64,000 nt of DNA from Antedon mediterranea. Lineage: Eukaryota > Echinodermata > Crinoidea > Comatulida > Antedonidae. A program made the translations under genes and the position numbers. Position 1 is the stretch's first letter. Each line of letters opens with the position of its first letter. The DNA lies in assembly GCF_964355755.1 (NCBI RefSeq), contig NC_092680.1, positions 4,565,001 to 4,629,000 on the forward strand, written 5' to 3'. Under the pieces are notes generated by a model. It had not been told where the DNA came from. It did not search any database and saw only the letters and a program-made list of their open reading frames with translations. Below, one piece after another: positions 9,131 to 58,865 of the stretch.

Positions 9131-12100
9131 ATGGATAAAAAGGTGTTGAATTACTTGAAAGGATATGCTGAATCGTTCAAGCGGAGTTTTAACATGCGAG
9201 TTTTAGCAGAAGATACTGAGATTAAAGAAGCTTACAAAACAGCTCAAGAAAGAGGAAAAGTACCATTTAACAGAACAAAGCTTCTTATTATGGGTGATCA
9301 TGGTGCCGGGAAAACGTCAACCTGCAGGCGTTTACAAGGAAAAGACTTTCGACCAGAAGAGCCTAGTACAATCGAAATAGAAACAAACACTGTTACAGTG
9401 AACGTTAGTGATGTTAATAGTAAATGGTGTGAAGTGACCAGCACTCCACTTGAAGATTATGAAAGTTCAGCAGCGTGGTGGACAGTATCACGTGTGCTCA
9501 AACAGAGCAAACTTAAGACATCGAGGGCATTTGATTCGTCTGACACAAATACACTATCAATCCGGAAGCTACTGGAGGACGCTTGTTATCTAATGTTGTA
9601 TCTGATCCCTTTTACTGTCATACTATGTTTTGGTGGGTTTACATTCGGATTCGGGCCAGTTGTGTGGTTATACATCGTTTGTATTATGACAATATGTGAT
9701 GTCCACAGTGCATATCGCGTTGGTTGTGGATACACTATAGTGATGGTCCTTGTAGATAGCGCAACACAATTAAGCGAGCAGACTGAATATTTACAAAATA
9801 TGGAGTTAAATACATGGGTTTATTTTACAGCACCACTAATGATTGTTTGCTTGTGTGGATTGGGTTCGTTTATCGTCGGAGTGCTTATGAGTACAGGTGG
9901 TAGGACTGGTATCTGTTTAGCATTGTGCATCATGGTACATCCAAAACAATACATTATTTCTATGGACGTTTTTTTAGAAAAACTGTCATTTATTTGCGAA
10001 CTATATCTTAAATTCGTCATTTCTGCAGTCATTGTAACAGTAATTTATAGAAGAATTCACACACAAATATTTTCAATCAGTCGAAGAAAGTTTACTATTG
10101 TATTATTACTTAACATAATGATTATCATTGCAGCAACGTTTTATTTCGGAAGAAACCATTTTGTTGACATATGTATTTTATTTTGTTTTATTGCACTTAT
10201 ATTTTCGTTTACATGCGGGCTTATATTAGGAAGAAAGATTATGGCTTATGGGTATGTGCCTGAAAATTACCTTTTAAAGAAATCTTTTGGTTTTATAGCT
10301 GGAATATGTTTAGCAAAAATATGTGGCTGGAGATTTGGAAATGCAATCAATTTAATTAATGTAATTGATGGCCATAATCATTCAAAATCACGGTATTTTT
10401 TGGACTTGTTTTTATTTTTTGCACCAATTGTTGCTTTTATTGTCTATGAGTTATTCTCATATGTCAAAGTAAAAACTACGTCATCAATACCAATACCGCA
10501 TATCAGAAAATCAATGAAAGCGGATCTTCGAAATGAAACAAATATTGATGCGAGACTAAGTTTATGGGATTTTTCAGGACAAGAAATGTACTATAATACA
10601 CACCATCTATTTATGCCAAAGCAAGGCGTATACTTGGTTGTTTTCAACGCTGTAGAAGCGATTTCTAATCCTGATAGACACATTAAACGGCTACAATTCT
10701 GGTTACAATCTATTGCTATGCATGTTGATATTGAGAATGTTGTAGTGTTTCTTGTAGGAACAAGAAGAGGAAGTGTACGTGATGCAAATGCGTTTTCTAC
10801 TTTTGATAAATTTGTAAATGTACATCTTTATAAAAGGTTTTCACGATTGCTTGCTTTTCATCCAAGTGGACGACTTTGCTTTTTTATTGAAAACGCATTC
10901 CAAATTGATAAGGAGCTTACCATCTTACGAGAGAGGATATATAGTGAAGTTTCGAAATTGAAATACTTTTGTGAAAAGTTTTCTTTGAAATACTTATTAT
11001 TTAAAAACACGTTAAATGGATTTCGACATAGACATTCTGTTATTGTGAGTATAAAAGAAATTAAAAATGAATTAAAGTTAACAAGCAAAATCTTTGTGAA
11101 ATATGAAGTGCGTCAACTTTTAGATTTCTTTGATAAATCTGGAGATATTATATACAATAAACTCGATGAACTACTTCAGAATTATGTTGTTTGTGATCCT
11201 CAAGTATTAATAGACATTCTGAAATTATTGGTGAATGTACCTGAACCTCACAAAAGAAACAGAGCCGTGTCTGATCTTTGGCAGAGATTACTGGAAACCG
11301 GAATTGTTGATAGTAGACTATTGGAACACATTTGTAGAAACAAAGAAATTTGGAGAGTTTATCCTTATGTTATTCGGTACTTGGTCGGAACACAGTTGAT
11401 GTTTCCACTTACAATAACTAATCAAGTTGATCAAGTTGGAACATTCTGTCTTCCTTGCAAATTGCCCAAAATTGATTCAATGCAATTTGAAATGTATTAT
11501 AGTGATCATATTTCTGACACATTTTATTTCGATTTTAGTGAAGTTTTGATAGAATATATATTTCTTCGACTTATTGCAAAATGCTGTCAAGATTTTGATT
11601 GGACTAGAATATATTATAACTGTGCACATTTCAAAGCAAGTGAAACATTGTTTTTTCAAATAAACACTGAAACAGTTTCTTCAGGCAGTATTTTTCTATA
11701 CGATAGAAATCTCATCAAACTATCAGTTTCTAAAGAAATTCCGAGTCAATCAGTTAATATCTTACAGAAAATACATTCTTTCATTGAAGAAATAATTTTA
11801 CAGACATTTAATCCAGATTACTTTCGTGATCAGTATGTTTGTGGTCCAGTATGTGAAAGATGTAGTTCATTGGATGGAACGATGTGTTTGGTGAATCTTG
11901 TTGCAATAAGTACAGATGTTTCTGCATTGAATGAATACAGACCAGATGAACACCACAAAGTTTATCGTAAACCAGAGGTAACTATTAATACTTTTTGCTT
12001 GTTTTTACGCCATCTTTCAATGAATTTAATTACTGTATATGTGTGCCTAAACAGACAATAATTTGGATTTTTATTTTAAATGCTTTTTTCTTCTTTTTTC

Positions 12101-12132
12101 AGTTCTGTTTTACCTGCAGTAGAGACCAATAA
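9131..12132 (+). CDS. Array gene 1: ROCO-like GTPase split by a polytopic membrane region
   Basis: Exon 1 is 9131-11977 and exon 2 is 12103-12132 (125-bp intron, donor GAG/GTAACT, acceptor TTTTTTCAG), giving 958 residues. The start is the ATG matching every paralogue. An in-frame ATG at 9083 precedes a likely acceptor and is less plausible. Residues 1-50 carry the ROCO lead-in (EIKEAYKTAQERGKVPFNRT). The P-loop GDHGAGKTS is at 55-63 and G2-like STIEIET near 79-85, where other members have STIGIET. Eight to ten hydrophobic segments span roughly 150-445. G3 is DFSGQ at 480-484 (Ala to Ser), followed by VGTRRGS in the G4 place. A COR-like region follows (VVCDPQVLIDILK, then TFCLPCKLPK, then CGPVCERC). 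No LRR, ankyrin or kinase domain is encoded. A two-base insertion in the terminal exon changes the usual tail to FCFTCSRDQ. The assignment to Roc-COR rests on motif order. A role as a membrane-tethered GTPase is inferred. Confidence 0.88.
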
Positions 12133-15108: not shown

Positions 15109-15156
15109 AGATTGAAATATTGCTATTATTTGGTAATGTTAATGTGATACGGAATT

Positions 15157-15213: not shown

Positions 15214-18200
15214 ATGGAACAACAAGGATTGAATTACTTACGAGGATTTGCTGAATCGTTTAAGCGAAGTTTTAACATGCGAGTTTTAGCAGATGATACT
15301 GAGATTAAAGAAGCTTACAAAACAGCTCAAGAACGAGGAGAAGTATCTTTTAACAGAACAAAGCTTCTTATTCTGGGTGATCATGGTGCCGGGAAAACCT
15401 CGACTTGCAGGCGTTTTCGAGACAAAGATTTTCGGCCAGAAGAGCCTAGTACAATCGGAATAGAAACAAACACGGTTCAGGCAAAAGTCAGTGATGTTAA
15501 TAGTAAATGGTGCGAGGTAACAAACACTCCATTAGAAGACTATGAAAGTTCAGCAGCGTGGTGGACAGTATCACGTGTGCTTAAGCAAGGTAAAAATAAG
15601 CAACCAAAGACATGTAAACAATCTGAAAATGATGCAAATATGTCGATCCGAAAAATATTTGAGGACATACGTTACCTGCTGTTATATTATATTCCCATGA
15701 CTGTACTTTTCTGTTTTGGTGGACTTACTTTCGGGTTCGGACCGGTTGCATGGTTGTATATTATTTACCTTTCAAGAATTTGTGATGTTCACAGTGCCTA
15801 CCGCTTTGGTTGTGGGTACACTATATGTATGGTACTCATAGACAGTGCTACACAATTGAACGAACAGTTTTCTCAGCAACCTGTCGTTGAGTTCAATATT
15901 TGGCTTTATATGACTGCTGTTATAGTTGTTTTTTTGTATGAATTAGGATCATTCCTTGTTGGTGTACTTATGAGCGCAGGTGGAAGGACTGGTATTTGCT
16001 TAGCTTTTTGCCTCATGGTACATCCAAAACAGACTATTATTTCTATTGAAGTTTTTTTAGAAAAAATATCATTTATTCACAATATAATATACTTTGAGTT
16101 TGTAATTTCTGCAGTTATTTTAGTAGTTATTTTTAGACTTATGCATACCAAAATATTTTCGCTTAGTCGAAAAAAGTTATTCCTTGTATTTATACTAAAC
16201 ATAATGCTGATAATAACAGCAATATATTTCGAAAGGCAAAATTTTGTTGACATATTTACTTTGTTTTGCTTTATTTCATTCGTGTTTTTTGTACTGTGTG
16301 GAGTTTTTTTAGGAAGGCAATTTGTGGCGTATGGGTATTTCCCCAAACACTACATTTTAAAAAAGGTGATTGGGTTTATTGCTGGAATATATATTGGCAA
16401 AATGTGTGGTTGGAAATTTGACAATTTTAACCATCTCACTATCTTAGAGAAAGACCATAACCTTCCAAAATATTTGCTTAAAATGTTGTCATTTGTGGCA
16501 CCGATTTTGGGTTTTATTATCTACGAGTGGCATTCATATATGAAGGTAAAAAGTACGTCATCAATACCAATCGTGCATATTAGAAAATCAATGGAAGCAG
16601 ATCTACGAAACGAATGTTACATTGACGCCAGACTAAGTTTATGGGATTTTGCAGGACAAGAAATGTACTATAATACACACCATCTTTTTATGCCAAAGCA
16701 AGGCGTATACTTGGTTGTTTTCAACGCTGTAGAAGCGATTTCTAATCCTGATAGACACATTAAACGGCTACAATTCTGGTTACAATCTATTGCTATGCAT
16801 GTGGATATTGAGAATGTTATAGTGTTTCTTGTAGGAACAAGAAGAGGAAGTGTACGTGATGAAAAGGCGTTTTCAACCTTTGAGAGATTTGTAAATGCAC
16901 ATCTTTACAAAAGGTTTTCAAAATTGCTTGCTTTTCATCCAAGTGGACGACTTTGCTTTTTTATTGAAAACTCATTCAAAGTTGATAAGGAGCTTAACAT
17001 CTTACGAGAAAGGATATATATTGAAGTAAAGAAATTAGAATACTTTTGTGAAAAATTGTCTTTAAAATACTTATTATTTAAAAACACGTTGAATGGATTT
17101 CGTCATAGACAGTCAGTTATAACGAGTATAAAAGATATTGAAGATGAATTAAAGTTAACAAGCAAAAACGTTGTGATATTTGAGGTGCGTCAACTTTTGA
17201 ACATATTTGATAAATCTGGAGATATCATATACAATGAACTTGATGAACTACTTCAGAAATATGTTGTTTGTGATCCTCAGGTATTAATAGACATTCTGAA
17301 AGTATTAGTGAATGTACCTGAACCACACAGAAGAAACAGAACCGTGTCTGATCTTTGGCAGAGATTACAAGAATCAGGGATTTTAGACAGTAGAATAATG
17401 GAACACATTTGCCGAAATAAAGGAATTTGGAGAGTTTATCCTTATGTTATTCGGTACTTGGTGGGAGCACATATTATGTTTCCACTTACAATTACTGATA
17501 AAGTTGATCAAGTTGGAACATTTTGTCTTCCTTGCAAATTGCCCAAAATTGAGTTACAACAACGTGAACTTGATTATATTGATCGTACTTCTGACATATT
17601 TTATTTCGATTTTGGTGAGGTATTATTAGAATTTGTATTTCTTCGACTTGTTGCAAAATGCTGCAATGTGTTTGATTGGAATAATATATATTATAACTGT
17701 GCACGGTTTAGAGCAAGTGAAACATGTTTTTTTCAAATAAGCACTGACACAGTTTCTTCAGATAGTATTTTTTTATATGAGAGAAATATCATCAAACTTT
17801 CAGTTTCGAAAGAAATTCCGAGTCAGTCAGTAAATATCTTACAGAAAATGCTTATTTCGGTTGAAGAAATAATCAAACAGACATTTAATCCTGATTACTT
17901 TCGTGATCAGTATGTTTGTGGTCCAATATGTGAAATATGTAGTTCATTGGATGGAACGATGTGTTTGGTAAATCTGGTTGCAATAAGTAAAGCTGTTTCT
18001 GCTTTGAAGGAATACAGAGTAGATGAATACCACAAAGTTTATCGTGAACGAGAGGTAATTGTATTTATTTTAATTTGTGCAAAAGTTTTTTTTTAAGACC
18101 TCGTAGACCTAGTTATGGGAGCCTGTTAAGTTGAAACAGACATATTAAACATTTCATAATTTTGTTACTGTAGTAGGCTTTATTGTAAGTGAATGGAAAT

Positions 18201-18427
18201 ATTGGGGTTGGACACAGTAATGTTTTAGGTCTCAGTGACGTTTCTAATAACGTTTAAATAACAATTACACAAAGACTACTGAGGATGTACTGCTACAAGC
18301 AGTCTTCTGGTAAAATTTTGTAAAGTTCACACAATCAATACTTTATTTTAGCCATAAGCTAATTTAGTTTTAAAATGCTTTAATTTTGCAGTTCAGTTTT
18401 ACATGTAGCAGACCGATAACCACCTAG
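15214..18427 (+). CDS. Array gene 2: membrane-interrupted ROCO-like GTPase
   Basis: Exon 1 is 15214-18054 and exon 2 is 18392-18427 (337-bp intron), giving 958 residues. The N-terminus begins MEQQGLNYLRGF, which groups it with the 49299 pseudogene and the 63988 member. P-loop GDHGAGKTS is at 55-63 with RFRDKDFRPEE after it, where most paralogues have RLQGKDFRPEE. STIGIET, DFAGQE and VGTRRGS are intact for the family. The membrane region differs most in the loop after the third hydrophobic stretch (QFSQQPVVEFN). The C-terminal half has FDWNNIYYNCARFRASETC, a signature otherwise found only in the orphan 3' half at 52411. The terminal exon encodes FSFTCSRPITT. A piggyBac-like MITE sits just upstream. 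Confidence 0.88.
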
Positions 18428-20212: not shown

Positions 20213-23200
20213 ATGGATAGCAAAATATTGAAATATTGGAAAGGATATACTGAATCTTTCAAACGTAGTTTCAACTTGCGAGTTTTAGCAGATGATACTG
20301 AGATTAAAGAAACCTACAAACAAGCTCAAGAAAAAGGAAAAGTACCTTTTAACAGAACCAAAGTTCTTATACTGGGTGATCATGGTGCCGGAAAAACGTC
20401 AACTTGCAGACGTTTACAGGGAAAAGATTTCCGACCAGAAGAGCCTAGTACAATCGGAATAGAAACAAACACCGTTGAGGCGAAGGTTAGTGATGTTAAT
20501 AGTAAATGGTGTGAAGTGACCAGCACTCCACTTGAAGATTATGAAAGTTCAGCGGCGTGGTGGACAGTATCACGTGTGCTTAAACAGGGTAAAAATAAAT
20601 CAAGTGGTTTGGTAGAAAATAATGCACAAGGAAAGATCCGAAAAATATTGGAAGACACATTTTACTTATTGTTGTATATTGTTCCTTTTACTGTTATACT
20701 GTGTTTTGGAGGTTTTACCTTCGGCTTTGGGCCAGTCGTGTGGTTATACATCGTTTGTATTATGGGAATATGTGATTTCCATAGTGCATATCGCTTTGGT
20801 TGTGGATATTCAATATGTATGGTCCTTATAGACAGCGCTACACAATTAAATGAACTGTTTACAAATTTACAAAGCATACAGTACAATATATGGATTTACG
20901 TGACTGCTGTTACGGTCGTTTGCATGTATGGAATTGGTTCGTTCCTCACCGGTGTGATTATGGGTACGGGTGGAAGGACTGGTATCTGTTTAGCATTGTG
21001 CTTCATGGTACATCCAAAACAGACAACTATCTCACTTAAAGTTTTTTTGGAAAAACTATCGTTGATTTACAATATAAAATACCTTGAGTTGGTAATTTCT
21101 GGAGTTATTATATCTGCAATTTTTAGGAGCATTCACAAATATATATTTGTACTTAGTCGAAGGAAGTATATTATTGTATTAATAATTATCATAATCTGTA
21201 TCATTGCAGCAACATACTTAGGAAGAAACGATATAGTTAACATATGTATTATATTTTGTTTTACGGCAATAATCTTTCTATTAATATGCGGGCTTATAAC
21301 TGCTAGAAAGGTTTATGTTTACGGGTATGCACCTAGAAATTACTTTATAAAGAAATCGTTTGGCTTTATAACGGGATTGTGTTTATCAAAGATGTGTGGT
21401 TGGCGACTTGAAAATGTAAGAACATTAATTCATTTATGTGATAGAAATAATCTTTCCAAATCACTGTATTTATTTAACTTATTTTCATTTTTTGCGCCAA
21501 TCATTGCATTTATTATCTACGAGTTGTTATGTTACATTAAAGTAAAAACTACGTCATCAATACCAGTAGTGCATATCAAAAAATCAATACAAGCAGATCT
21601 TCGAAACGAATGTTACATTGATGCCAGGCTAAGTTTATGGGATTTTGCAGGACAAGAAATGTACTATAATACACACCATCTGTTTATGCCAAAGCAAGGC
21701 GTATACTTGGTTATTTTCAACGCTGTAGAAGCCATTTCTAATCCTGATAGATACATTAAACGGCTACAATTCTGGTTACAATCTATTGCTATGCATGTTG
21801 ATATTGAGAATGTTGTAGTGTTTCTTGTAGGAACAAGAAGAGGAAGTGTAGGTGATGAAAATGCGTTTTCTACTTTTGAGAAAATTGTAAATGCACATCT
21901 TTACAAAAGGTTTTCTAGGTTGCTTGCTTTTCATCCAAGTGGACGACTTTGCTTTTTTATTGAAAACTCACTCAATCTTGATAAAGAACTTAATTTCTTG
22001 CGAGAAAGAATATATAATGAATTTACGAAATTAAGATACTTTAGCGAAAACTTTTCTGTCAAATATCTTTTATTTAAAAACACCCTAAATGGATTTCGAC
22101 ATAGACAGTGCATTATTGTGAATATAAAAGATATTGAAGATGAATTAAATTTGACAAGCAAAATCTTTGTGAAATATGAGATGCGTCAACTTCTGAATTT
22201 CTTTGATAAATCTGGAGATATCATATACAATGAACTTGATGAACTACTTCGGAATTATGTTGTTTGTGATCCTCAGATATTAATAGACATTCTGAAATTA
22301 TTAGTGAATGTACCTGAACCACACAGAAGAAACAGAGCCGTGTCTGATCTTTGGCAGAGATTACAAGAAACAGGGATTATTGATAGCAGGTTATTAGAAC
22401 ACATTTGCCGAATGAAAGGAATTTGGAGAGTTTATCCTTATGTTATTCGGTACTTGGTTGGAACACAGTTGATGTTTCCACTTACAATAACTAATCAAGT
22501 TGATCAAGTTGGGACATTTTGTCTTCCTTGTAAATTTCCCAAAATTGATTTACAACAATGTGAATTTAATTATAATTATCATAATTCGGACATATTTTAT
22601 TTCGATTTTGGTGAATTTTTACTAGAGTTTATATTTCTTCGACTTCTTCCAAAATTCTGCGAAACCTTTGATTGGATAAGGATCTATTATAACTGTGCAC
22701 ATTTCAGAGCAAGTGAAACATGTTTGTTTCAAATAAACACTGAAACAATTTCTTCTGGCAGTATTTTCTTATATGATAGAAATCTATTAAAACTTTCAGT
22801 GTCCAAAGTAATCCCGAGTAAATCAGTCGATATCTTACGGAAAATGCATACTTTCATTGAAGAGATAATCAAACAAACATTTAATCCGGATTACTTTCAT
22901 GATCAGTATCTTTTTGGTCCAGTATGTGAAAGATGTAGTTCTTTGGATGGAACGATGTGTCTGGTGAATCTTGTTGGCTCAAGTAACAATGTTTCTCCAT
23001 TGAATGAATACAAAGTAGATGAATATCACACTGTGTATAGTAAATCAAAGGTAATATTTTGTTTATTGTTTTGCTTTAGTATTTTCTCTTTTGGTGAGAT
23101 TTAACACATCTTTTTTAATTAACCAGCCTATAAATCCAGAATAGGCGTACACAATATATTGTGTGTTATTTAATAATTTTATTTATGAATGTTAATTTTG

Positions 23201-23254
23201 CAGTTCAGTTTTACCTGCAGTAGACCAATCAGTTTCACCCAGACAAGTGTTTGA
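20213..23254 (+). CDS. Array gene 3: membrane-interrupted ROCO-like GTPase
   Basis: Exon 1 is 20213-23050 and exon 2 is 23204-23254 (153-bp intron), giving 962 residues ending FSFTCSRPISFTQTSV. It begins MDSKILKYWKGY. P-loop, STIGIET and DFAGQE are intact. The G4 place reads VGTRRGSVGDEN, where most others read VRDEN. The G3 block carries DRYIKRL instead of DRHIKRL. Its C-terminal third (LLKLSVSKVIPSKSV, DYFHDQYLFGPVCERC) and its 3' flank match gene 4 closely, while its 5' half is distinct, so the C-terminal third may have been homogenised with gene 4. Reading through the donor would add a hydrophobic tail (FCLLFCFSIFSFGEI), almost unchanged in gene 4. Confidence 0.88.
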
Positions 23255-25672: not shown

Positions 25673-26584
25673 TAGTCAGGTGGCTTAGCGACTAAAACGT
25701 TACACGGTGGACATAAGCACCACATTTGGCATGAGGCTTCTTTTAGACGTACTAATTGATTTTTGCCTAGGAGCCACCCGATCATCTTCCGATTTTCCAA
25801 GATGGCGGCCAAAATCCAAAATGGCTGCCAGTAAATTGGTATATCATATATCTCTGGCTGTAAAAGTTACAAATAGACAAATAATGTACTGAATAAAGAA
25901 TTTCTGAGGTCAGTAAAACCGATTCAGGAAATATTATATAAGGTGAGTTCCAAAATGGCGCCCAAAAATAAAAATGGTAGCCATTGAAATTCAAATACAT
26001 ATAATCGTATACAAAGTCACAAATAGTCCATTTCCTAATATAATTTAGCCTGCAAATCAGAAGGAAAGTGCAAGCATTGCATTTTATGAATTTTTTAACC
26101 ATGCTAGTTATAAAAATCCATGTTATCAAATTTCTAAAGTTTTCCCTTGACCTTTGACCTCAATTTGAATATTTTAATCCAATTGAAAACAAAATAACCA
26201 TATCTCCGCAACGCTTGCATTAAATTAAATAATTTTAGTGTCAAAATCTTTGGAAGATGCATATTAATATTCGTCCTAATGGAAACATTTGTCAAAAAAT
26301 GTCCGGAAGTATGATTTTTGGTGATTTTGACCTTTGACCTACATGTCATATAACTTGGTAACTAACAGTTGGACAAACTTGAAATATGTCTCAAATTAAT
26401 CAGAAGATGGATGTTTCTATTCAGTCTAATACAAACTTTTCCAAGAAAATGACCCAGATTCTTGTTATTGACCTTTGACCTGTACTGGTAGTACACATTT
26501 CTATATCTCGAAAACTAGTGGTCGTAAAAGTTTTTTTTATGAGAAATTGTTAGAAAAATATATATTTATATGTTTTATAATAAA
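25673..26584. repeat. Spacer with degenerate repeats and three DR1 motifs
   Basis: This 0.9-kb block separates flank copies A and B and has no counterpart between the other copies. It holds AAGATGGCGGCCAAAATCCA-type words and a degenerate repeat of about 140-180 bp. Each unit ends in TGACCTTTGACCT (26148, 26328, 26469). It looks like a transposon or satellite fragment of unknown class. Confidence 0.5.
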
Positions 26585-29345: not shown

Positions 29346-32300
29346 ATGGAAAAAAAAGAACTGGATTACTTGAAAGGATATGCTGAATCCTACAAGCGAA
29401 GTTTCAACTTGCGAGTATTAGCAGATGATACTGAGATTAAAGAAGCTTACAAAACTGCTCGAGAAAGAGGAAAGTTACCTTTTAACAGAACTAAGGTTCT
29501 TATTCTGGGTGATCATGGTGCCGGGAAAACGTCAACCTGCAGGCGTTTACAAGGAAAAGATTTTCGTCCAGAAGAACCTAGTACAATTGGAATAGAAACA
29601 AACACTGTTGAGACGAAAGTCAGTGATGTTAATAGTAAATGGTGTGAGGTGACAAACACTCCATTAGAAGACTATGAAAGTTCAGCAGCGTGGTGGACAG
29701 TATCTCGTGTGCTTAAACAGGCAAAAAGGTTGTCAAAGGCACGTGGTTCGTCTGGCAATAAAACACATTTATTGATCCGAAAATTATTGGAGGACATATA
29801 TTACTTAATGTTGTATATTATCCCTTTTACTGTTATACAATGTTTTGGTGGGTTTACATTTGGGTTCGGGTCAGTTGTGTGGTTGTACATCTTTTGCATT
29901 ATGACAATATGTGACGTCCACACTGCATATCGCTTTGGTTGTGGATATGCTATAATGATGGTACTTGTAGATAGAGCTACACAAAATGAACAGTTTTCAA
30001 ACCTACAAAACATAGATATAAATACATGGATTTATTTCACTGTGGTTATGTTTGTTTGCATGTATGGAATTGGCTCATTCCTTGTCGGCATACTTATGGG
30101 CACAGGTGGAAGGACTGGTATCTGTTTAGCATTGTGTTTCATGGTACATCCAAATCAGACTGTTATTTCCATTGAAAGTTTTTTAGAAAAGCTATCATTT
30201 TTTTACAATATGATATATTATCTTAAATTCATATTTTCTGGAGTTATCCTAATAGTAATTTTTAGGAGCATTCACTCACAAATCTTTTCACTTAATCGAA
30301 GAAAGTTTATTACTTTGATAATAATTAACATCGTTTGTATCATTACAGCAATATACTTAGGAAGGAACAATTTTGTTGAAATATGTATTTTATTTTGCTT
30401 CATTGCAATTGTCTTTTCAATCATGTGTGGAGTTATATTAGGAAGAAAGATTGTAGCTTATGGCTATACACCTGGAAATTACTTTGTAAAGAAATCAGCA
30501 GGGTTTATTGTTGGAATATTTTTAGCAAAATTATGTGGTTGGAAATTTGGAAATGTGTCTAATTTAAGAGATGGTCATAACCATTCCAAGTCACAGTATA
30601 TATTTGACTTGATTTTATTTTTTGCCCCAATTACTGGTTTTATTATCTACGAATGGCATTCTTATACAAAAGTAAAAACTACATCGTCAATACCAATAGT
30701 GCATATCAGGAGGTCAATGGAAGCAGATATGCGAAACGAATGTTACATCGATGCCAGACTAAGTTTATGGGATTTTGCAGGACAAGAAATGTACTATAAT
30801 ACACACCACCTATTTATGCCAAAGCAAGGCGTATACTTGGTTGTTTTCAACGCTGTAGAAGCGATTTCTAATCCTGATAGACATATTAAACGGCTACAAT
30901 TCTGGTTACAATCTATTGCTATGCATGTTGATATTGAGAATGTTGTAGTGTTTCTTGTAGGAACAAGGAGAGAAAGTGTACGTGATGAAAATGCGTTTTC
31001 TACTTTTGGGAAATTTGTAACTGCACATCTTTACAAAAGATTTTCAAGATTGCTTGCTTTTCATCCAAGTGGACGACTTTGCTTTTTTATTGAAAACTCA
31101 TTTAATGTTGATAATGAGCTTTCCCTTTTGCGAGAAAGTATATATAATGAAGTTATGAAATTGAGATACTTTCGTGAACAATTTTCTGTAAAATATCTAC
31201 TATTTAAAGAAACGTTAAATGGATTTCGTCATAGACAGTGCGTTATTGCGAGTATAAAAGATATTGAAAACGAATTAGTGTTAACAAGTACCAACTTTGT
31301 GAAATATGAGGTGCGTCAACTTCTGAATTTCTTTGATAAATCTGGAGATATCATATACAATGAACTTGATGAACTACTTCAGAATTATGTTGTTTGTGAT
31401 CCTCAGGTATTAATAGACATTCTGAAATTATTAGTGAATGTACCTGAACCACACAAAAGAAACAGAGCCGTGTCTGATCTTTGGCAGAAATTACTGGAAA
31501 CAGGAATTGTAGACAGTAGACTATTGGAACACATTTGCCGAAACAAAGGAATTTGGAGAGTTTATCCTTACGTTATTCGGTATTTGGTCGGAACACAGTT
31601 AATGTTTCCACTTACAATAACTAACCGAGTTGATCAAGTTGGGACATTTTGTCTTCCTTGCAAATTGCCTAAAATTGAGTTGCAGCCACGTGAATTTAAT
31701 TACAGTTATCATACTTCTGACATATTTTATTTCGATTTTGGTGAAGTTTTACTAGAATTTATATTTCTTCGAATTATTGCAAAATGCTGTCAAGTGTTTG
31801 ATTGGATAAGGATCTATTATAACTGTGCGCATTTCAGAGCAAGTGAAACATGTTTTTTTCAAATAAACTCTGAGACAATTTGTGCAGATAGTATTTATGT
31901 ATATGATAGAAATCTATTAAAACTTTCAGTGTCCAAAGTAATCCCGAGTAAATCAGTCAATATCTTACGGAAAATGCATACTTTCATTGAAGAGATAATT
32001 CAACAAACATTTAATCCGGATTACTTTCACGATCAGTATCTTTTTGGTCCAGTATGTGAAAGATGTAGTTCTTTGGATGCAACGATGTGTTTGGTGAATC
32101 TTGTTGGCTTAAGTGACGATGTTTCTGCATTGAATGAATACAAAGTAGACGAATATCACACTGTGTATAGTAAATCAAAGGTAATATTTTGTTTATTGGT
32201 TTGCTTTAGTATTTTCTCTTTTGGTGAGATTTAACACATCTTTTTTAATTAACCAGCCTATAAATCCGGTATATGCGTACACAATATATTATTTGTTGTT

Positions 32301-32382
32301 TACTAATTTTATTTATGAATTAATTTTGCAGTTCAGTTTTACCTGCAGTAGACCAATCAATTTCACACAGACAAGTCTTTGA
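29346..32382 (+). CDS. Array gene 4: membrane-interrupted ROCO-like GTPase (reference copy for residue map)
   Basis: Exon 1 is 29346-32180 and exon 2 is 32332-32382 (151-bp intron), giving 961 residues ending FSFTCSRPINFTQTSL. Residue map: ROCO lead-in 30-50; P-loop 55-63; S79-T80 in the G2 place; W-rich link ESSAAWWTVSRVLKQ 111-125; hydrophobic segments near 152-172, 174-192, 228-252, 287-308, 321-338, 343-366 and 418-437, with weaker ones near 198-210, 256-268 and 384-399. G3 DFAGQ is 476-480, G4-like VGTRR 538-542, COR-like VVCDPQVLIDILK 682-694, TFCLPC 767-772, GPVCERCSSLDATMC 901-915. Both halves of the G domain must lie on one side of the membrane, so an even helix number is expected. 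It is a near twin of gene 5, flanks included. Confidence 0.9.
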
Positions 32383-38600: not shown

Positions 38601-39166
38601 TTTACTTTTTAAGATATCGTCCTACATTTTTTGTGGTTGTTAATAAGTATATACTTATTCAAATCTGACTTACCTGTTTATTTCACACGAGATATCAAAT
38701 AGCACACCCTCTGTATTCTTTTAATATGAGCCGAAATAATAAGCAGGTCATTTACTAGGCAGACCAATACAAAAATAGATTACTGAGACAAATAATAAAA
38801 AAATAATAGTACGAATAATAATAATAATATAAATTATTCTTATTATTCTGTGGCAATATTTTGCAAATACTTATGTATGTAGGCCTTATTTGTTATTAAA
38901 TGTGTATTCTTTTAACATGGCCTGAAATATCAACATGTGGCAATATTTTGCCAAGTACTTCACTCAGTTTCTGAGTGCTTTCTTTTTATATTGGTTGTAC
39001 TTTGAATTTTTTTCTTCAATTACCTATATTAGAATACAGTATAAAATGCGTACATATAGATGGTAATAATCTGTTATTATGTATACTAACTTATCATTTT
39101 TAATTTATTTTGCAGTTCAGTTTAACCTGCAGTAGACCAATAACCATCACCCAGACAACTGTTTGA
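35640..39166 (+). CDS. Array gene 5: membrane-interrupted ROCO-like GTPase with altered P-loop
   Basis: Exon 1 is 35640-38483 and exon 2 is 39116-39166, giving 964 residues ending FSLTCSRPITITQTTV. The 632-bp intron is the longest in the array. The first 130 residues equal gene 4 except for the P-loop, which reads GDHAAGKTS (Gly58 to Ala). Gly58 is a variable P-loop position, so binding may persist; the GK(T/S) core is intact. The switch region has SNPGRHIKRL where all other intact copies have SNPDRH, SNPDRY or SNPNKH. Its 3' flank does not match copies A-C but matches the flank of gene 6, placing a duplication breakpoint near the end of this gene. Confidence 0.88.
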
Positions 39167-42351: not shown

Positions 42352-45300
42352 ATGGATAAACAAGGTTTAAATTACTTGAATGGATATAGTGAATCTTTCA
42401 AGCGAAGTTTTAACTTGCGAGTTTTAGCAGATGATACCGAGATTAAAAATACTTACAAAACTGCCGAGGAACAAGGAAAAGTACCTTTTAAAAGAACTAA
42501 GGTTCTTATTTTGGGTGATTATGGTGCCGGAAAAACATCGACTTGCAGGCGTTTACAAGGAAAAGATTTTCGACCAGAAGAGCCTAGTACAATTGGAATA
42601 GAAACAAACACCGTTGAGGCGAAAGTCAGTGATGTTAATAGTAAATGGTGTGAGGTGACAAACACTCCACTAGAAGATTATGAAAGTTCAGCAGCATGGT
42701 GGACAGTATCACGTGTGCTCAAACAGGGCAAACATAAGGTGCCGAATGCTCGTGGTTTGTCTGATAACAATAAACGAGTATCGATCAGAAAAGTACTGGA
42801 AGACACATGTTATTTAATGTTGTATATCATTCCTTTTACTGCTATACTATGTTTCGGTGGGCTTACATTCGGTTTTGGGCCAGTCGTGTGGTTATACACC
42901 GGTAGCATTATGGCAATATGTGATGTTCACACTGCTTATCGCTTTGGTTGTGGATTCTCTGTATGGATGGTACTCGTAGATAGTGTAACAACACTAAATG
43001 AACAATTCGAAAATGTACAAAGCATAGACTTATGGATTTACACAACAGCTGTTAGGGTTGTTTGCATGTATGGAATTGGTTCGTTCCTTATTGGTGTGCT
43101 TGTCAGTGCAGGTAGTAGGACTGGTATCTGTGTAGCATTGTGCTTTATGGTACATCCAAGACAAACTTCAATTGAAGACTTTTTAGAAAAACTGTCTTTT
43201 ATTGAAAATATAGTTTACTTTAAATTTGTAATTTCTGTCTGTATCATAACAGCAATATTTAGGAGCATTCACACCAAAATATTGCCACTTAGTCGAAGGA
43301 AGTTGATTATTATATTAATGATTAACTTAATTTGTATCATTACAGCAATATATTATTTCGGAAGTAATAATTTTGTCGAAATTTGCATTTCATTTTGCTT
43401 TATTGCGATTGCTTTTTCTATAACCTGTGGAATTATATTAGGAAGAACAATTGTAGCTTATGGGTATGTGCCTGAAAATTACTTTATTAAGAAATCTTTT
43501 GGGTTTTTAGCTGGGATATGTTTAGCCACACTGTGTGGTTGGGAATTTGAAAATGTAAAGAATTTAATTATTTTAAATGATGGCCATAGCCATTCAACGT
43601 CAAAGTATTTATTTAACTTGTTTCTATTTTTTGCGCCAATTACTGGGTTTATTATCTACGAGTTATTATCTTATGTTAAAGTAAAAACTACATCATTAAT
43701 ACCATTAAAGCAAATAAGGAAATCAATTAAAGCAGAAGTGCGTAACGAATGTTACATAGATGCCAGACTAAGTTTATGGGATTTTGCAGGACAACAAATG
43801 TACTATAATACACACCATCTGTTTATGCCAAAGCAAGGCGTATACTTGGTTGTTTTCAACGCTGTAGAAGCGATTTCTAATCCCGATAGACACATTAAAC
43901 GGCTACAATTCTGGTTACAATCTATTGCTATGCATGTTGATATTGAGAATGTTGTAGTGTTTCTTGTAGGAACAAGAAGAGAAAGTGTACGTGATGGAAA
44001 TGCGTTTTCTACTTTTGATAAATTTGTAAATGCACATATTTATAAAAGGTTTTCAAGATTGATTGCTTTTCATCCAAGTGGACGACTTTGCTTTTTTATT
44101 GAAAACTCATTTAATGTTGATAAGGAGCTTTACCTTTTGCGAGAAAGTATATATAATGAAGTTACAAAATTGAGATACTTTCTTGAAAAATGTTCTGTAA
44201 AATATCTACGATTTAAAGAAACGATAACTGGATTTTGTCATAGACAGTGCGTTATTGCGAGTATCAAAGATATTGAAAACGAATTGTTGTTAACAAGTAC
44301 CAACTTTGTGAAATATGAGGTGCGTCAACTTCTGAATTTCTTTAATAAATCTGGAGACATTATTTACAATGAACTTGATGAAGTACTTCACAATTATGCT
44401 GTTTGTGATCCTCAGGTATTAATAGACATTCTTACAGTATTAGTGAATGTACCTGAACCACACAAAAGAAACAAAGCCGTGTCTGATCTTTGGCAGAGAT
44501 TACAAGAAACTGGGATTGTTGATAGTAGACTGATGGAACACATTTGCCAAGACAAAAGAATTTGGAGAGTCTATCCTTTAGTAATTAAGTACTTGGTGGG
44601 AACACAGTTGATGATTCCAATTAAAATAACTAATCAAGTTGATCAAGTTGGAACATTTTGTATTCCTTGCAGATTGCCCAAAATTGATTTGGAAAAATTT
44701 GAATTTAATTATAGTGAACATATTTCTGACGTATTTTATTTCGATTTTGGTGAAGTTCTACAAGAATTTATATTTCTTCGACTTCTTGCAAAATGCTGCC
44801 AGGAGAAAGAGTTTGATTGGGTTAAGATATATTACAACTGTGCCCAATTCAGAGCGAGTGAAACATGTTTGTTTCAAATAAACTCTAAAACAATTTCTTC
44901 GGGCAGTGTTTTGTTATATGATAGAAATCTCATCAAACTGTCAGTGTCTAAAGAAATCCCGAGTCAATCAGTTAATATATTACAGAAACTGCACACTTTC
45001 ATTGAAGAAATAATTTTACAGACATTTAATCAGGATTACTTTCGTGATCAGTATGTTTGTGGTCCAGTATGTGAAATATGTAGTTCATTGAATGGAACGA
45101 TGTGTTTGGTGAATCTTGCTTCATTAAGTAACGATGTATCTGCATTGAAGGAATACAGGGTAGATCAATACCACACAGTTTATCGTGAAGGAAAGGTAAT
45201 TTGGTTTTATGATTTTTCTATTAGCAATGAAAATTTAAAGCCATATTTCATTGAATCAATTATATTGTATAATTCATTGTGTATACAAAGGTAAAACAAT

Positions 45301-45389
45301 AATTCATTAATTTTTATTTTATACTAATTTGATTTTTAAATGCTTTAATTTTCCAGTTTTCTTTAAGGTGTAGTCGACCAATAACCTAG
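42352..45389 (+). CDS. Array gene 6: divergent membrane-interrupted ROCO-like GTPase
   Basis: Exon 1 is 42352-45195 and exon 2 is 45357-45389 (161-bp intron, acceptor TTTTCCAG), giving 958 residues ending FSLRCSRPIT. It is the most diverged intact member. The P-loop reads GDYGAGKTS (His to Tyr). G3 reads DFAGQQMYY where others have GQEMYY. The pre-G3 link is SIKAEVRNECYIDARLS. The COR-like part has DKRIWRVYPLVIKYLVG, where others have YVIRYLVG, and an extra EKE before FDWVKIYYNCAQF. The membrane region has unusual words (GSIMAICDVHTAYRFGCGF, VSAGSRTGICVALC). All GTPase landmarks remain, so it is probably functional. Confidence 0.87.
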
Positions 45390-47910: not shown

Positions 47911-47966
47911 CCAGATTTTTTACCCTGAAATTACTGTGTATTCGAGAACCATCTGTGGGCACGACC

Positions 47967-49244: not shown

Positions 49245-49248
49245 TATC

Positions 49249-49298
49249 TTATATAGCATAAGAGTTGATGCTACTCAGCCAAGTTATATTCCAATAAG
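49249..49298 (+). promoter_or_regulatory. Conserved proximal promoter of the 49299 pseudogene
   Basis: TTATATAGCATAAGAGTTGA, then TGCTACTCAGCCAAGTTA, at the same distance from the ATG as in gene 2. Confidence 0.5.
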
Positions 49299-52291
49299 AT
49301 GGAACAAAACCATTTAAATTACTTGAAAGGATATGCTGAGTCTTTCCAGCGAAGTTTTAACATGCGAGTTTTAGCCGAAGATACTGAGATTAAAGAAGCT
49401 TACAAAACAGCTCAGGAAAGAGGACAAGTACCCTTTAACAGAACCAATGTTCTTATTCTGGGTGATCATGGTGCTGGGAAAACCTCGACTTGCAGACGTT
49501 TTCAAGACAAAGATTTTCGGCCTGAAGAGCCTAGTACAATCGGAATAGAAACAAACACTGTTGAGGCGAAGGTTAGTGATGTTAATAGTACAAATGGTGT
49601 GAGTTTACAAACACTCCTTTACAAGATTATGAAAGTTCAGCAGCGTGGTGGACAGTGTCACGTGTGCTTCAACAGGATAAAAATAAGTTGCCAAAGGCAC
49701 GTAATAAATCTGTCACTGATGTAAATGTGTCGATCCGACAAATATTTGAGGACATAATTTACATGCTGTTTCATATTATTCCAATGCCTGTAATTTTCTG
49801 TTTTGGTGGACTTACTTTCGGGTTCGGACCGGTTGCATGGTTATACATCTTTTACATTTCAAGAATTTGTGATGTTCACAGTGCCTATCGCTTTGGTTGT
49901 GCGTACACTTTATGTATGGCACTCGTAGACAGTGCTACTCAAGTTGCTCAGCAACCTGTCGTTGAGTTAAATATGTGGATTTATGTGACTGTTGTTATAG
50001 TTGTTTGCTTGTATGGGTTGGGTTCGTTCCTGGTTGGTGTGCTTATGAGTGCAGGTGGTAGGACTGGTATTTGCTTAGCTTTTTGTCTCATGGTACATCC
50101 AAAACATACCGTACTATTATTTCTATTGAAGTTTTCATAGAAAAAATATTATTCATTGACAATATAATATACATTGAGTTTGGTATTTTCTGCAGTTATT
50201 TTAATATTTGTTTTTAGAAGTATGCATACCAAAATATTTTCTCTTAGTCGAAGAAAGTTGGTCATTGTATTTATACTAAACATAATGCTTATAACAACAG
50301 CATTATATTTGGGAAGCCACAATTTTGTTGATATATTTACATCGTTTTGCTTTATTTCAATCGGATTTTTTTTGCAATTTGTGGAGTTCTTCTAGGAAAG
50401 CAATTTGGAGCGTATGGGTATTTCACTGAACACTACCTTGTAAAAAAGGCTATTGGGTTTATTGCTGGGATTTATATTGGCAGAATGTTTGGTTGGAAAT
50501 TTGAAAATTTTAACAATCTAACTATCTTAGAGAAAGAACTTTCACAATATTTGCTTAAAGTTGTGTCATTTGTTGCACCAGTTTTGGGTTTTATTATCTA
50601 CGAATGGTTTTCTTACATGAAAGTAAAATCGACGTCATCGATACCAATTGTGCATATCAGAAAATCAATGGAAGCAGATCTACGAAACGAATGTTACATT
50701 GATGCCAGACTAAGTTTATGGGATTTTGCAGGACAAGAAATGTACTATAATACACACCATCTATTTATGCCAAAGCAAGGCGTATACTTGGTCGTTTTCA
50801 ACGCTGGAGAAGCGATTTCTAATCCTGATAGACACATTAAACGGCTACAATTCTGGTTACAATCTATTGCTATGCATGTTGATATTGAGAATGTTGTAGT
50901 GTTTCTTGTAGGAACAAGAAGAGGAAGTGTACGTGATAAAAATGCGTTTTCTACTTTTGATAAATTTGTAAATGCACATCTTTACAAAAGGTTTTCAAAA
51001 TTGATTGCTTTTCATCCAAGTGGACGAATTTGCTTTTTTATTGAAAACGCATTCAATGTTGATAAGGAGCTTAACATCTTACGAGAAAGGATATATAATG
51101 AAGTAACGAAATTGAAATATGTTTGCGAAATGTTTTCTGTAAAATACCTATTATTTAAAAATACTTTAAATGGATTTCGACATAGACAATGTATTATTGC
51201 GAGTGTAAAAGGTATTGAAAATCAATTAAAGTTACCAAGCAAAATCTTTGTGAAATATGGAGTGCGTCAACTTTTGAATTTCTTTGATAAATCTGGAGAT
51301 ATCATATACAATGAACTTGATGAACTACTTCAGAATTATGTTGTTTGTGATCCTCAGGTATTAATAGACATTCTGAAAGTATTAGTGAATGTACCTGAAC
51401 CACACAAAAGAAACAGAGCCGTCTCTGATCTTTGGCAGAGATTACAAGAAATGGAATTGTTGATAGTAGACTGATGGAACACATTTGCCGAAACAAAGGA
51501 ATTTGGTCAGTTTATCCTTATGTTATTCGGTACTTGGTGGGAACAGAATTGATGTTTCCACTTACAATAACTAATCAAGTTGATCAAGTTGGAACATTTT
51601 GTCTTCCTTGCAAATTGCCCAAAATTAATTTACAACAAGGTGAATTTGATTCTAATACATACTTTTACTTCGATTTTGGTGAAGTTTTAGGCCTACTAGA
51701 ATTTATATTTCTTCGACTTTTTGGAAAATGCTGCCAAGTTTTTGATTGGCTTGAGGTCTATTATAACTTTGCACATTCCAGAGCAAGTGAAACATGTTTG
51801 TTTCAAATAAACACTGAAACAGTTTCTTCGGGCAGTATTTTTCTATACGATAGAAATCTCATCAAACTTTCAGTTTTAAAGGAAATCCCGAGTCAGTCAG
51901 TTAATATCTTACAGAAAATGCATACGTTCATTGAAGAAATAATCCTACAAACGTTTAATCCGGAATACTTTCATGATCAGTATCTTTTTGGTCCTGTGTG
52001 CGAAAGATGTAGTTCTTTCGATGGAACAATGTGTTTAGTGAATCAATAAGTAACGATGCATCAAATGAATACAGAGTAGATAAATATCACAAAGTGTATC
52101 ACAAACCAGAGGTAATTATATGGTTATTTTAGCTAAATGTGCTTTAATTAATTATCTTTGTTAGTAGTGAGTAACGCCATAGTTAATTGATTTAGTTTTT
52201 GTTTTTAATATTATTTATACTAATTTGCTTTATAAATTCTTTTTTTTTTTTGCAGTTCAGTTTTACCTGCTGTAAACCAACCTTCACCTAG
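49299..52291 (+). pseudogene. Array gene 7: frameshifted, chimeric ROCO-like copy
   Basis: The start (MEQNHLNYLKGY), promoter and membrane region follow gene 2, but the 3' part and 3' flank (about 51.4-52.41 kb) follow gene 8 (FDWLEVYYNFAHSRASETC, terminal exon FSFTCCKPTFT at 52256-52291). Against the paralogues the lesions are: two extra bases near 49592, inside the AGTAAATGG site; five extra bases near 50110 and one near 50187, which together restore frame; two extra bases in a T run near 50367; one base lost near 51451; and seven bases lost near 52043, giving an early stop at 52049. P-loop GDHGAGKTS and DFAGQE survive in separate frames. The splice donor (52111/52112) is intact. Confidence 0.85.
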
Positions 52292-52410: not shown

Positions 52411-53274
<864 letters not shown>

Positions 53275-53716
53275 TATTGACTACAAGTTCATTTATTTAA
53301 TGGAAACTCATGTGTTAACAAGTTGGACATTTGTATCGTTTGTTTGAAACCATTAGATATCCAATTCGGATATAAACATATTGCTCTTGTTTGTAGACAA
53401 TTGATATCATACACAATTGCGACGAATTAGACTGTAAACATCACTTTTTAAGAGTCCCATAAATCAAAACAAAACGTATGGGCGATGCCAATTATTTTTA
53501 TTTGTAATTGTTGTCCCCCAAAAACATGAAAAATGAAGATTAATTAAATCAGACTTTGAATATGTTATTCTGTAGTTTTAATAAAGTTAATCACTTCAAT
53601 AGAAAAAAAACTAAAAAAAAAGTTTTCACTTATAAAATGACCAAAAATCCATTGCCTGGCAGCCAATTTGACCATTGTTTGCTTTATTTACATTTTTCAG
53701 GTAAATACATTTTTAG

Positions 53717-53832
53717 TCGCGTGGACGCAACTCTATAGTTCACTATGTCGGTCGGTCGGTCGGTCTGTCGGTCTGTCTGTCGGTCCGGTATCACTATGCG
53801 TTTTAGCACGCGACTTGTGGCTGTTGGCCTTG
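53717..53832 (+). repeat. CGGT-type dispersed element, plus orientation
   Basis: Begins with TAGTCGCGTGGACGCAACTC, the hairpin end, then AGTTCACTATGTCGGTCGGT and CGGT/CTGT units. It ends GCACGCGACTTGTGGC and TTGGCCTTGTT. The hairpin has one arm mutated. Confidence 0.65.
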
Positions 53833-55880: not shown

Positions 55881-58865
55881 ATGGAACGGAAAGGATTGAA
55901 TTACTTGAGAGAATGTTCTGAATCTTATAAGCGAAGTTTTAACTTGCGAGTTTTAGCAGATGATTCCGAGATTAAAGAAACTTACAAAACAGCCCAAGAA
56001 AGAGGAAAAGTACCTTTTAACAGAACGAAGGTACTTATTTTGGGTGATCATGGTGCTGGAAAAACGTCAACCTGCAGGCGTTTGCAGAGTAAAGATTTTC
56101 GTCCAGAAGAGCCTAGTACAATCGGAATAGAAACAAACACTGTTGAGGCGAAAGTCAGTGATGTTAATAGTAAATGGCGTGAGGTGACAAACACTCCATT
56201 AGAAGACTATGAAAGTTCTGCAGCGTGGTGGACAGTATCTCGGGTGCTCAAACAGGATAAAACTAAGGATAAGTTAAAGGCAAATAATACGTCTGGAAAT
56301 AATACATATGCTTCGATCGGAAAAGTATTACAGGACACATACTACCTAATGTTTCATATTATGCCTATGACAGTAATGTTCTGTTTTGGTGGACTTACAT
56401 TTGGATTCGGGCCAGTTGCATGGTTTTATATAATTTGTCTTTCGGTATTTTGTGATTTTCACAGTGCTTATCGATTTGGCTGTGGTTATACTATATGTAT
56501 GGTACTCATAGATAGCGCTACACATTTTGGCCAGCAACATGTCATACAATTTAATTTACAGATGTACGTAATGACTATAACAATTGTCTGCATGTATGGA
56601 CTGGGGTCGTTCCTTGTTGGTGTGCTTATGACTACAGGTGGAAGGACTGGCATCTGTATAGCTTTGTGTTGCATGATACATCCAAGCCATACCACAATTT
56701 CTCTCGAAGTCTTACTAGAACACTTATCTAATATGTTTTACAGTATGAAATATTTAGAGTTCTCAATTTATGGAGTTACTATATTGACCATTTTTAAAAT
56801 CATTAACACTAGTCTAAGAAATGTGATAATTGTATTGGTACTTAATATCATGCTTATAACAGCAGCGATATATTTCGGAAGACACAATTTTGTTGACATT
56901 TGTACATTATTTTGTTTCATTTTTACCGTGTGTTTCTTGATTTGTGGGCTTATAATAGGAAGAAAATTAGTGGCGTATGGGTATGTCCCTCAATACTACC
57001 TTTTTAAACGGTTTATTGGGTTTATTGCTGGAATATATATTGGCAAAATGTGTGGTTGGGAAATTGGCAATTTTAACCATCTAAGTATATCAGAGAAAGA
57101 TCATAGCCTCTCTATGTCAAGTTTGTTGACATTTATTGCCCCAATTTGGGGGTTTATAATCTACGAATGGTTTTCTTACATGAAAGTAAAATCGACGTCA
57201 TCGATACCAATTGTGCATATCAGAAAATCAATGGAAGCAGATTTACGAAACGAATGTTATATTGACGCCAGACTAAGTTTATGGGATTTTGCAGGACAAG
57301 AAATGTACTATAATACACACCATCTATTTATGCCAAAGCAAGGCGTATACTTGGTTGTTTTCAACGCTGTAGAAGCGATTTCTAATCCTAATAAACACAT
57401 TAAACGGCTACAATTCTGGTTACAATCTATTGCTATGCATGTTGATATTGAGAATGTTGTAGTGTTTCTTGTAGGAACACAAAGAGGAAGTGTACGTGAT
57501 GAAAATGCGTTTTCTACTTTTGATAAATTTGTAAATGCACATCTTTACAAAAGGTTTTCAAGATTGCTTGCTTTTCATCCAAGTGGACGAATTTGCTTTT
57601 TTATTGAAAACGCATTCCATGTTGATAAGGAGCTTAACATCTTACGAGAAAGGATATATAATGAAGTAACGAAATTGAAATATTTTTGCGAAATGTTTTC
57701 TGTAAAATACCTATTATTTAAAAACACTTTAAATGGATTTCGACATAGACAATGTATTATTGCGAGTGTAAAAGATATTGAAAATCAATTAAAGTTAACA
57801 AGCAAAATCTTTGTGAAATATGAAGTGCGTCAACTTTTGAATTTCTTTGATAAATCTGGAGATATCATATACAATGAACTTGATGAACTACTTCAGAATT
57901 ATGTTGTTTGTGATCCTCAGGTATTAATAGACATTCTAAAATTATTAGTGAATGTACCTGAACCACACAGAAGAAACAGAGCCGTGTCTGATCTTTGGCA
58001 GAGATTACAAGAAACTGGGATTGTAGATAGTAGACTGATGGAACACATTTGCCGAAATAAAGGAATTTGGAGAGTTTATCCTTACGTTATTCGGTACTTG
58101 GTGGGAACAGAGTTGATGTTCCCACTTACAATAACTAATCAAGTTGATCAAGTTGGAACATTTTGTCTTCCTTCCAAATTGCCCAAAATGAATTTGCAAC
58201 AAGGTGAATTTGATTCTAATCATACTTCTAATATATTTTACTTCGATTTTGGTGAAGTTTTACTAGAATTTATATTTCTTCGACTTATTGCAAAATGCTG
58301 CCAAGTGTTTGATTGGCTTGAGGTCTATTATAACTTTGCACATTTCAGAGCAAGTGAAACATGTTTGTTTCAAATAAACACTGAAACAGTTTCTTCGGGC
58401 AGTATTTTTCTATACGATAGAAATCTCATCAAACTTTCAGTTTTAAAGGAAATCCCGAGTCAGTCAGTTAATATCTTACAGAAAATGCATACTTTCATTG
58501 AAGAAATAATCCTACAAACGTTTAATCCGGAATACTTCCATGATCAGTATCTTTTTGGTCCAGTATGTGAAAGATGTAGTTCTTTGGATGGAACAATGTG
58601 TTTGGTGAATCTTGTTGCAATAAGTAACAATGCATCGAATGAATACAGAGTAGATAAATATCACAAAGTATATCACAAACCAGAGGTAATTATATGGTTA
58701 TTTTACCTAAATGTGCTTTAATTAATTATCTTTGTTAGTAGTTAGTAGTAACGCCATAGTTAATTGATTTAGTTTTTGTTTTTAATATTATTTATACCAA
58801 TTTGCTTTTTAAATTCTTTTATTTTGCAGTTCAGTTTTACCTGCTGTAGACCAACCTTTACCTAG
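55881..58865 (+). CDS. Array gene 8: membrane-interrupted ROCO-like GTPase, shortest intact copy
   Basis: Exon 1 is 55881-58685 and exon 2 is 58830-58865 (144-bp intron), giving 946 residues ending FSFTCCRPTFT. It begins MERKGLNYLRECSESYKRSF. P-loop, STIGIET and DFAGQE are intact. The G4 place reads VGTQRGS, unlike VGTRR elsewhere, and the switch segment reads SNPNKHIKRL. The loop between the middle hydrophobic segments is shortened (INTSLRNVIIVLVLN lacks the SLSRRK words), which accounts for most of the missing length. CLPSKLPKM replaces CLPCKLPK, removing one conserved cysteine of the COR-like part. Its 3' portion and flank donated, or share origin with, the 3' part of gene 7. Confidence 0.88.

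Follow-up and report, generated by a model that had tools for sequence, protein, structure and literature searches.

A tandem array of ROCO-type genes in the crinoid Antedon mediterranea with a Roc domain divided by a predicted membrane module

We analyzed a stretch of 64,000 nucleotides from the crinoid Antedon mediterranea (NCBI RefSeq assembly GCF_964355755.1, contig NC_092680.1; C11:4565001-4629000 in our contig numbering), here called the window, which contains a tandem array of genes for Roc-type GTPases in which the Roc domain is divided by a long hydrophobic insert. Seven intact gene copies and one broken copy were identified in the window, all on the forward strand (Table 1), and a further copy begins at its edge, at about position 63988. 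The seven genes counted in the original prediction are the intact ones, but the broken eighth copy and the copy at the edge have to be added.

The first exon consists of 935-949 codons and is closed by a GTAA donor in all seven intact window copies; the probability of 945 open codons by chance is 7.5e-33 at the local base composition. Likeness between the copies at the DNA level begins no more than a few bases from the ATG, so that no shared coding exon is seen upstream. The genes are not, as had been proposed, made of one uninterrupted exon each, because the donor is followed by a short, phase-0, coding second exon of 9-29 residues with the pattern F.[FL].C.... The final position of the predicted feature, 58865, is a real stop, but it belongs to exon 2 of gene 8 rather than to exon 1. 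Conserved cysteines are present in exon 2 and in residues 902-919 of gene 4 (PVCERCSSLDATMCLVNL), which could bind metal or be lipidated.

The genome (354 Mb, 18 contigs) was searched with the module, that is, with the hydrophobic insert; only the best candidates were scored, and the counts are therefore lower bounds. At least 30 matches were obtained at E-values up to 0.1, corresponding to 16 open copies and 14 broken or partial pieces. The open copies are located at C11 4.57-4.65 Mb (9 copies), C11 17.55-17.60 Mb (4), C11 19.24 Mb (2) and C4 8.84 Mb (1), and a decayed copy with its parts far apart was found at C5 15.885-15.889 Mb. A search with the divergent module of n1, which together with n2 forms an outlying pair, yielded at least 36 matches at E-values up to 1; among them are a chance-like match on C2 (E 0.89) and some fragments located a short way upstream of n2. 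All remaining matches adjoin Roc halves of the same family, and among the genome matches the insert was found only in the Roc family of the window genes. The GTAA donor is present in 14 of the 16 open copies and is replaced by GTAC in n1, while n2 (C11 19.24 Mb) has a probable frame change in about the last 15 residues of exon 1, followed by a stop; it is counted as open in the sense that its frame is intact through Roc and COR. The pattern search recovered the second exon behind 14/16 open copies and found none behind copies m3 and h10.

Using gene 4 as the reference copy, we compared the two Roc-like segments to the Pfam Roc profile, for which the cut-off is 27 bits. The N-lobe alone matches profile positions 1-48 with 35.1 bits and the C-lobe alone matches positions 55-117 with 41.8 bits, whereas the two halves joined, with the insert omitted, give a single match over positions 1-117 with 84.2 bits. 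As coded, the protein is matched by Roc in two separate stretches, and the halves carried by the seven intact window copies correspond to profile positions 1-48 and about 47-117. When scanned apart, the N-lobes of three copies exceed the cut-off, as does the gene 4 C-lobe; the C-half was matched by Roc in all 15 copies scanned. In all 16 open copies the P-loop begins at residue 54 or 55, and LWDF[AS]GQ follows 413-424 residues later. The best matches in PDB by sequence are to the Roc domain of LRRK2 (6oje), in which the two matched stretches are 5 residues apart (61 to 67) as compared to 375 residues in gene 4, with the N-terminal stretch alone being weak in this search (i-Evalue 0.58). As judged from the sequences, a single Roc G domain is encoded in two halves, with the hydrophobic module filling the cut, and by comparison to LRRK2 the cut falls between switch I and switch II. 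This is presumably the turn between strands beta2 and beta3, the tip of a hairpin, in which case the fold could tolerate the insert and both stalks would exit on one side. The complementary matches and the spacing confirm the proposed split in the seven window genes, and they support the idea of one Roc domain interrupted once. The interrupted Roc is a variant layout in which the homology to Roc remains.

The motifs G1 (GD[HY].AGKTS), G2 (PST[IV].IET) and G3 (WDF[AS]GQ) are retained in 16/16 copies. The switch I sequence of the original prediction, STIGIET, is STIEIET in gene 1. The G4-like motif aligns with GTHLD of LRRK2, from which gene 4 differs by having GTRRE at this position. GTRRD is kept in the outlying pair n1 and n2 and not in the other 14 copies, and the base-specifying aspartate was thus probably lost inside the expanded clade. 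Downstream of Roc, some sub-threshold Pfam match to COR-A was obtained for all 15 C-halves scanned (h10 was outside the alignment), with a best E-value of 2.7e-4. When the C-half profile was searched against PDB, the matches were confined to the Roc part. The segment that corresponds to residues 92-125 of gene 4, VSDVNSKWxEVTxTPLEDYESSAAWWTVSRVLK, is nearly invariant among the window copies; it lies between strand beta2 and the module and has no noteworthy family match.

Table 1. Features of the gene array in the window (window coordinates) and two distant relatives elsewhere in the genome.
Feature	Position	Strand	Amino acids (aa) or residues	Basis or content
Gene 1, exon 1	9131..11977	+	949 aa	open reading frame
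Gene 1, exon 2	12103..12132	+		exon 2 pattern
Gene 2, exon 1	15214..18054	+	947 aa	open reading frame
Gene 2, exon 2	18392..18427	+		exon 2 pattern
Gene 3, exon 1	20213..23050	+	946 aa	open reading frame
Gene 3, exon 2	23204..23254	+		exon 2 pattern
Gene 4 (reference), exon 1	29346..32180	+	945 aa	GTAA donor at 32181
Gene 4, Roc N-lobe	29487..29633	+	residues 48-96	Roc profile 1-48; contains GDHGAGKTS (P-loop), STIGIET (switch I) and strand beta2
Gene 4, predicted membrane module	29790..30665	+	residues 149-440	7 clear, 1 weak, 2 marginal hydrophobic segments
Gene 4, Roc C-lobe	30750..31175	+	residues 469-610	DFAGQ, G4-like GTRRE, G5-like region; Roc profile
Gene 4, COR-like region	31176..32015	+	residues 611-890	Pfam COR-A 17.1 bits
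Gene 4, exon 2	32332..32382	+	FSFTCSRPINFTQTSL, then stop	exon 2 pattern
Gene 5, exon 1	35640..38483	+	948 aa	open reading frame
Gene 5, exon 2	39116..39166	+		exon 2 pattern
Gene 6, exon 1	42352..45195	+	948 aa	open reading frame
Gene 6, exon 2	45357..45389	+		exon 2 pattern
Gene 7 (broken by frame changes and stops)	about 49297..52111	+		sequence comparison
Partial 3' end duplicate downstream of gene 7	52412..52992	+		sequence comparison
Gene 8, exon 1	55881..58685	+	935 aa	open reading frame
Gene 8, exon 2	58830..58865	+		exon 2 pattern
Distant relative L059	C3 1.707 Mb, L059 1354-2991	-	546 residues, single frame	P-loop-like GDSTSDKY
Distant relative L060	C1 9.761 Mb, L060 1428-3041	-	538 residues, single frame	P-loop-like GDSRSGKY

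Hydrophobic segments in the module were scored by free energy (dG) over the 16 copies. Seven segments are clear (151-172, 177-197, 229-251, 289-310, 319-340, 344-366 and 418-440), with a mean dG of 0.02 or less, although single copies fall short of a membrane-spanning score at several of them. The eight to ten segments of the original prediction are a fair count, provided that one weak and two marginal segments are included with the seven clear ones. The segments are largely retained at identities as low as 36-40%. With the N-terminal side cytosolic, subtracting the lysines and arginines of odd loops from those of even loops gives 10.9 for eight crossings and 12.2 for ten, as compared to 0.6 and 1.9 for nine crossings and 6.7 for seven, and the 25-residue flanks of the module are both basic (means of 6.3 and 5.4 lysines and arginines). 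The basic flanks and the charge counts favour an even number of crossings, as had been proposed, with the two Roc halves in the cytosol. A glycosylation sequon is present near residue 412 in 7/16 copies. The suggested Pfam comparison of the module region gave no convincing family: across the 16 members there were eight weak families, each matched in 1/16 and the best being DUF679 (E 0.0059), and no PDB chain was matched at E-values up to 10. No family profile of a known transporter, G protein-coupled receptor or channel was matched in these Pfam and PDB searches.

Ratios of nonsynonymous to synonymous substitutions (dN/dS) were estimated for the 91 pairs of 14 copies, with n1 and n2 excluded as too diverged. 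The median dN/dS is 0.12 for the N-lobe, 0.33 for the module, 0.30 for the C-lobe and 0.29 for COR. Peaks were observed in the vicinity of the last predicted outside loop and in the N-side linker, where the median is 0.67 and values above 1 were obtained in 25/91 pairs. At fourfold degenerate sites, the 21 pairs of the seven window copies differ at 539/1362 sites in the module (0.396) as compared to 68/948 in the C-lobe (0.072), with values of 0.173 for COR and 0.251 for the N-lobe. The module is more divergent than the C-half in 83 of the 91 pairs, which are not independent, and all five disjoint pairs tested show this excess (Fisher p 3.1e-8 to 2.4e-4). The corresponding differences between n1 and n2 are 26/72 in the module, 10/45 in the C-lobe and 15/78 in COR. 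Moreover, the module and the C-half each reject the tree of the other (approximately unbiased test, p 4.3e-8 and 1.2e-7). The simplest reading is that the cytosolic parts have been swapped or gene-converted while distinct modules were retained, and the array would then most likely represent different sensors with one shared output.

A pattern search for relatives gave 66 matches in a collection of genome contigs and 289 in one of viral contigs, none of which was confirmed. Two distant relatives, L059 and L060, have a P-loop-like stretch, a hydrophobic middle and a C-lobe-like end in an order similar to that of the window genes. Their C-lobe is homologous to that of the window family (hhalign probability 98.3%), while no Pfam Roc match was obtained for either at E-values up to 1. 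L059 aligns to the full-family profile without a break from position 230 to 609, some alignments in a genome search with L059 extend through the module, and the P-loop part of L060 reaches 4.4 bits, as compared to 1.3 for the best of 200 shuffles. The module profile scores -4.7 and -6.4 bits against the two relatives, with 4.2 for the best of 200 shuffles, and the link is not established for this region. L059 and L060 suggest, without proving it, that the split layout is older than the expansion of the copies. Being COR-less and degenerate, they might regulate the intact proteins. Grouped weak C-half matches (E 0.01-0.1) at C2 34.1-34.4 Mb and C3 22.7-24.6 Mb suggest that other ROCO-like families are present. 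In addition, an LRRK-like gene on the reverse strand (L053 3624-4179, C9 6.236 Mb) has an apparent intron between VREW and FLLSTWDFAGQ, at the same position in Roc as the module, which points to a possible route of insertion.

We propose that the genes encode a family of membrane-embedded ROCO-type GTPases that act as sensors, and for the anatomy and the sensor mechanism combined we estimate a probability of about 0.55. The anatomy of a split G domain is by itself very probable. The module would form a polytopic membrane bundle, with both Roc halves in the cytosol folding as one G domain suspended from the bundle through the beta2-beta3 (interswitch) hairpin. A ligand, a lipid or another membrane event would shift the two stalks, and this motion would displace the interswitch and both switches and thereby set nucleotide loading or hydrolysis. 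The signal would be relayed by Roc-COR, probably via a COR dimer, for which ROCO proteins offer a precedent (PMC11052575). Coupling through the interswitch is proposed by analogy with Arf, as is the output through a COR dimer by analogy with ROCO proteins, and the mechanism in full is somewhat less likely to be right than wrong. We would be more doubtful of a new receptor principle, in which an interswitch hairpin serves as a transmembrane stalk, a sensor bundle sets the nucleotide state without an exchange factor, and a repertoire maintained by gene conversion feeds one Roc-COR output. Most work on Roc-COR proteins concerns LRRK2, in which the control of the GTPase by membrane contact is still to be explained; if the proposal is correct, direct coupling of membrane to switch becomes testable in a natural protein, and the family would consist of receptors with no described counterpart in the literature searched.

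Several observations weigh against this proposal. The assignment to ROCO proteins is sound for Roc, which scores above the cut-off, but the COR-A matches reach only 17.1-19.9 bits against a cut-off of 35.3, and the G4 aspartate is replaced by glycine or glutamate in 14/16 copies (GTRRG, GTRRE or GTQRG). Since only seven segments are clear, which is an odd number, an even number of crossings depends on including segment 381-401, which is weak (mean dG 1.56; at most 0 in 0/16 copies and at most 2 in 11/16); segments 198-216 and 255-272 are marginal, with means of 1.90 and 1.87. The dN/dS of the module exceeds 1 in 0/91 pairs, giving no sign of positive selection over the module as a whole, and its excess at fourfold sites is missing in 8/91 pairs. 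Divergence between n1 and the 14 other copies is flat over four regions (0.594-0.621 at fourfold sites) and near saturation; the case against mutation specific to a region, as a source of the low C-half divergence, is carried by the discordant trees. Finally, L059 and L060 lack DxxGQ and have no COR before the stop.

The module could instead be a transporter or channel, with Roc-COR as its gate or regulator and not as the output of a sensor. Such a function would agree with the invariance in 16/16 copies of the module residues D190, R196, D209, R256 and H268 (gene 4 numbering) and with a conserved, marginally hydrophobic stretch, GGRTGIC...MVHP. We consider it unlikely, as the profile searches gave nothing beyond the single-member Pfam matches and no PDB chain, and as modules that diverge in tandem next to a shared output would suit sensing better. 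Less likely still is a degenerate G domain that serves as a membrane-anchored scaffold, or pseudo-GTPase. The absence of the G4 aspartate and the loss of DxxGQ and COR in the distant relatives are in line with such a role, but the GKT of the P-loop, the threonine of switch I and DF[AS]GQ are retained in 16/16 copies, and dN/dS is lower in the N-lobe than in any other region.

Another explanation is that the module is spliced out within the long exon to give a soluble Roc. A GT is present at residue 97 in 15/16 copies (GTAAAT in the six copies inspected), and in-frame AG dinucleotides occur near residues 460-461, each in 15/16. This was judged very improbable: no pyrimidine tract was seen before those AGs in the short stretches inspected by eye, the GT can be explained by the conserved protein sequence NSKW, and the median dN/dS of 0.33 in the module speaks against its removal. 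An artefact of assembly or gene models, or frames open by chance, would have to account for 16 open copies on C4 and at several sites of C11, dN/dS ratios well under 1 in the N-lobe, module, C-lobe and COR, and a conserved donor and second exon, and its probability is close to negligible.

The surroundings of the array contain exons of a Ctr-type copper transporter on the reverse strand at 4807-5670 (Pfam Ctr, E 2.4e-17 and 6.8e-7). A frame rich in histidine and methionine at 6825-7232 may be its N-terminus, and has no Pfam match. No match was obtained in a three-frame Pfam scan of positions 1-9000 of the forward strand. An intergenic block of about 1.9 kb is present three times (23756-25674, 26586-28507 and 32897-34796), about 94-97% identical where compared, and is perhaps a mobile element or a recent tandem duplication. 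A long TA microsatellite is located at about 53010-53140, immediately downstream of the splice donor in the partial 3' duplicate.

The proposed membrane-embedded GTPases were compared to known systems. LRRK2, the Parkinson's disease protein, and the LRRK family share with the window genes the Roc motifs and the order of Roc followed by a COR-like region. In LRRK2, Roc is uncut, whereas the hydrophobic module lies between switch I and switch II in the window genes. The latter also differ from LRRK2 in that no Pfam match to LRR, ankyrin, kinase or WD40 domains was found in the three exon-1 proteins scanned. The idea of membrane helices within a P-loop NTPase has a precedent in the KAP NTPases (Kidins220/ARMS), which are said, in the title of work by Aravind from 2004 (cited in PMC8195603, PMC4632323 and PMC9599734), to have transmembrane segments inside the P-loop NTPase domain. 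The KAP NTPases belong to another P-loop class and have fewer helices; they resemble the window genes in the insertion of membrane helices in the NTPase domain, which for the window genes is judged from layout and hydrophobicity. The KAP profile was absent among the Pfam matches up to E 1 in three copies.

Among ROCO proteins, those of brown algae have diversifying genes, and non-conserved insertions inside Roc are noted in the available part of PMC11378527; the diversity sits in the LRR exons, and no membrane module inside Roc is reported in that part. Some ROCO proteins of Ectocarpus end in regions that resemble transmembrane proteins (PMC4104024, in excerpt). In Aplysia, Toll-like receptors of the LRR and TIR type carry annotated Roc and COR domains within a single membrane receptor protein, and the accessible text of PMC9334734 reports no membrane segments inside Roc. 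The split layout does not appear in the available portions of PMC6337361, PMC11378527, PMC9334734, PMC1420674 and PMC4104024, and the word transmembrane has 0 occurrences in that of PMC6337361. That no ROCO protein with this layout had been described agrees with our searches, in which none with membrane helices inside Roc was found among the best 5-20 papers listed, of up to 800 matched, from the open-access literature; subscription journals are mostly outside this body of text, the searches did not extend to animal sequence databases, and an earlier report is possible.

A parallel for the proposed coupling is provided by the Arf and Sar GTPases, whose interswitch hairpin corresponds to the site of the cut in the window genes. 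Gene 4 as coded scores under the cut-off of the Arf profile, which is passed by n1 (26.4 bits) and by the joined halves of gene 4 (23.5 bits). Displacement of the interswitch accompanies membrane association in Arf and Sar, according to PMC4140167. Unlike the window genes, in which the module interrupts the G domain itself, Arf carries an amphipathic helix at its N-terminus and lacks an insert.

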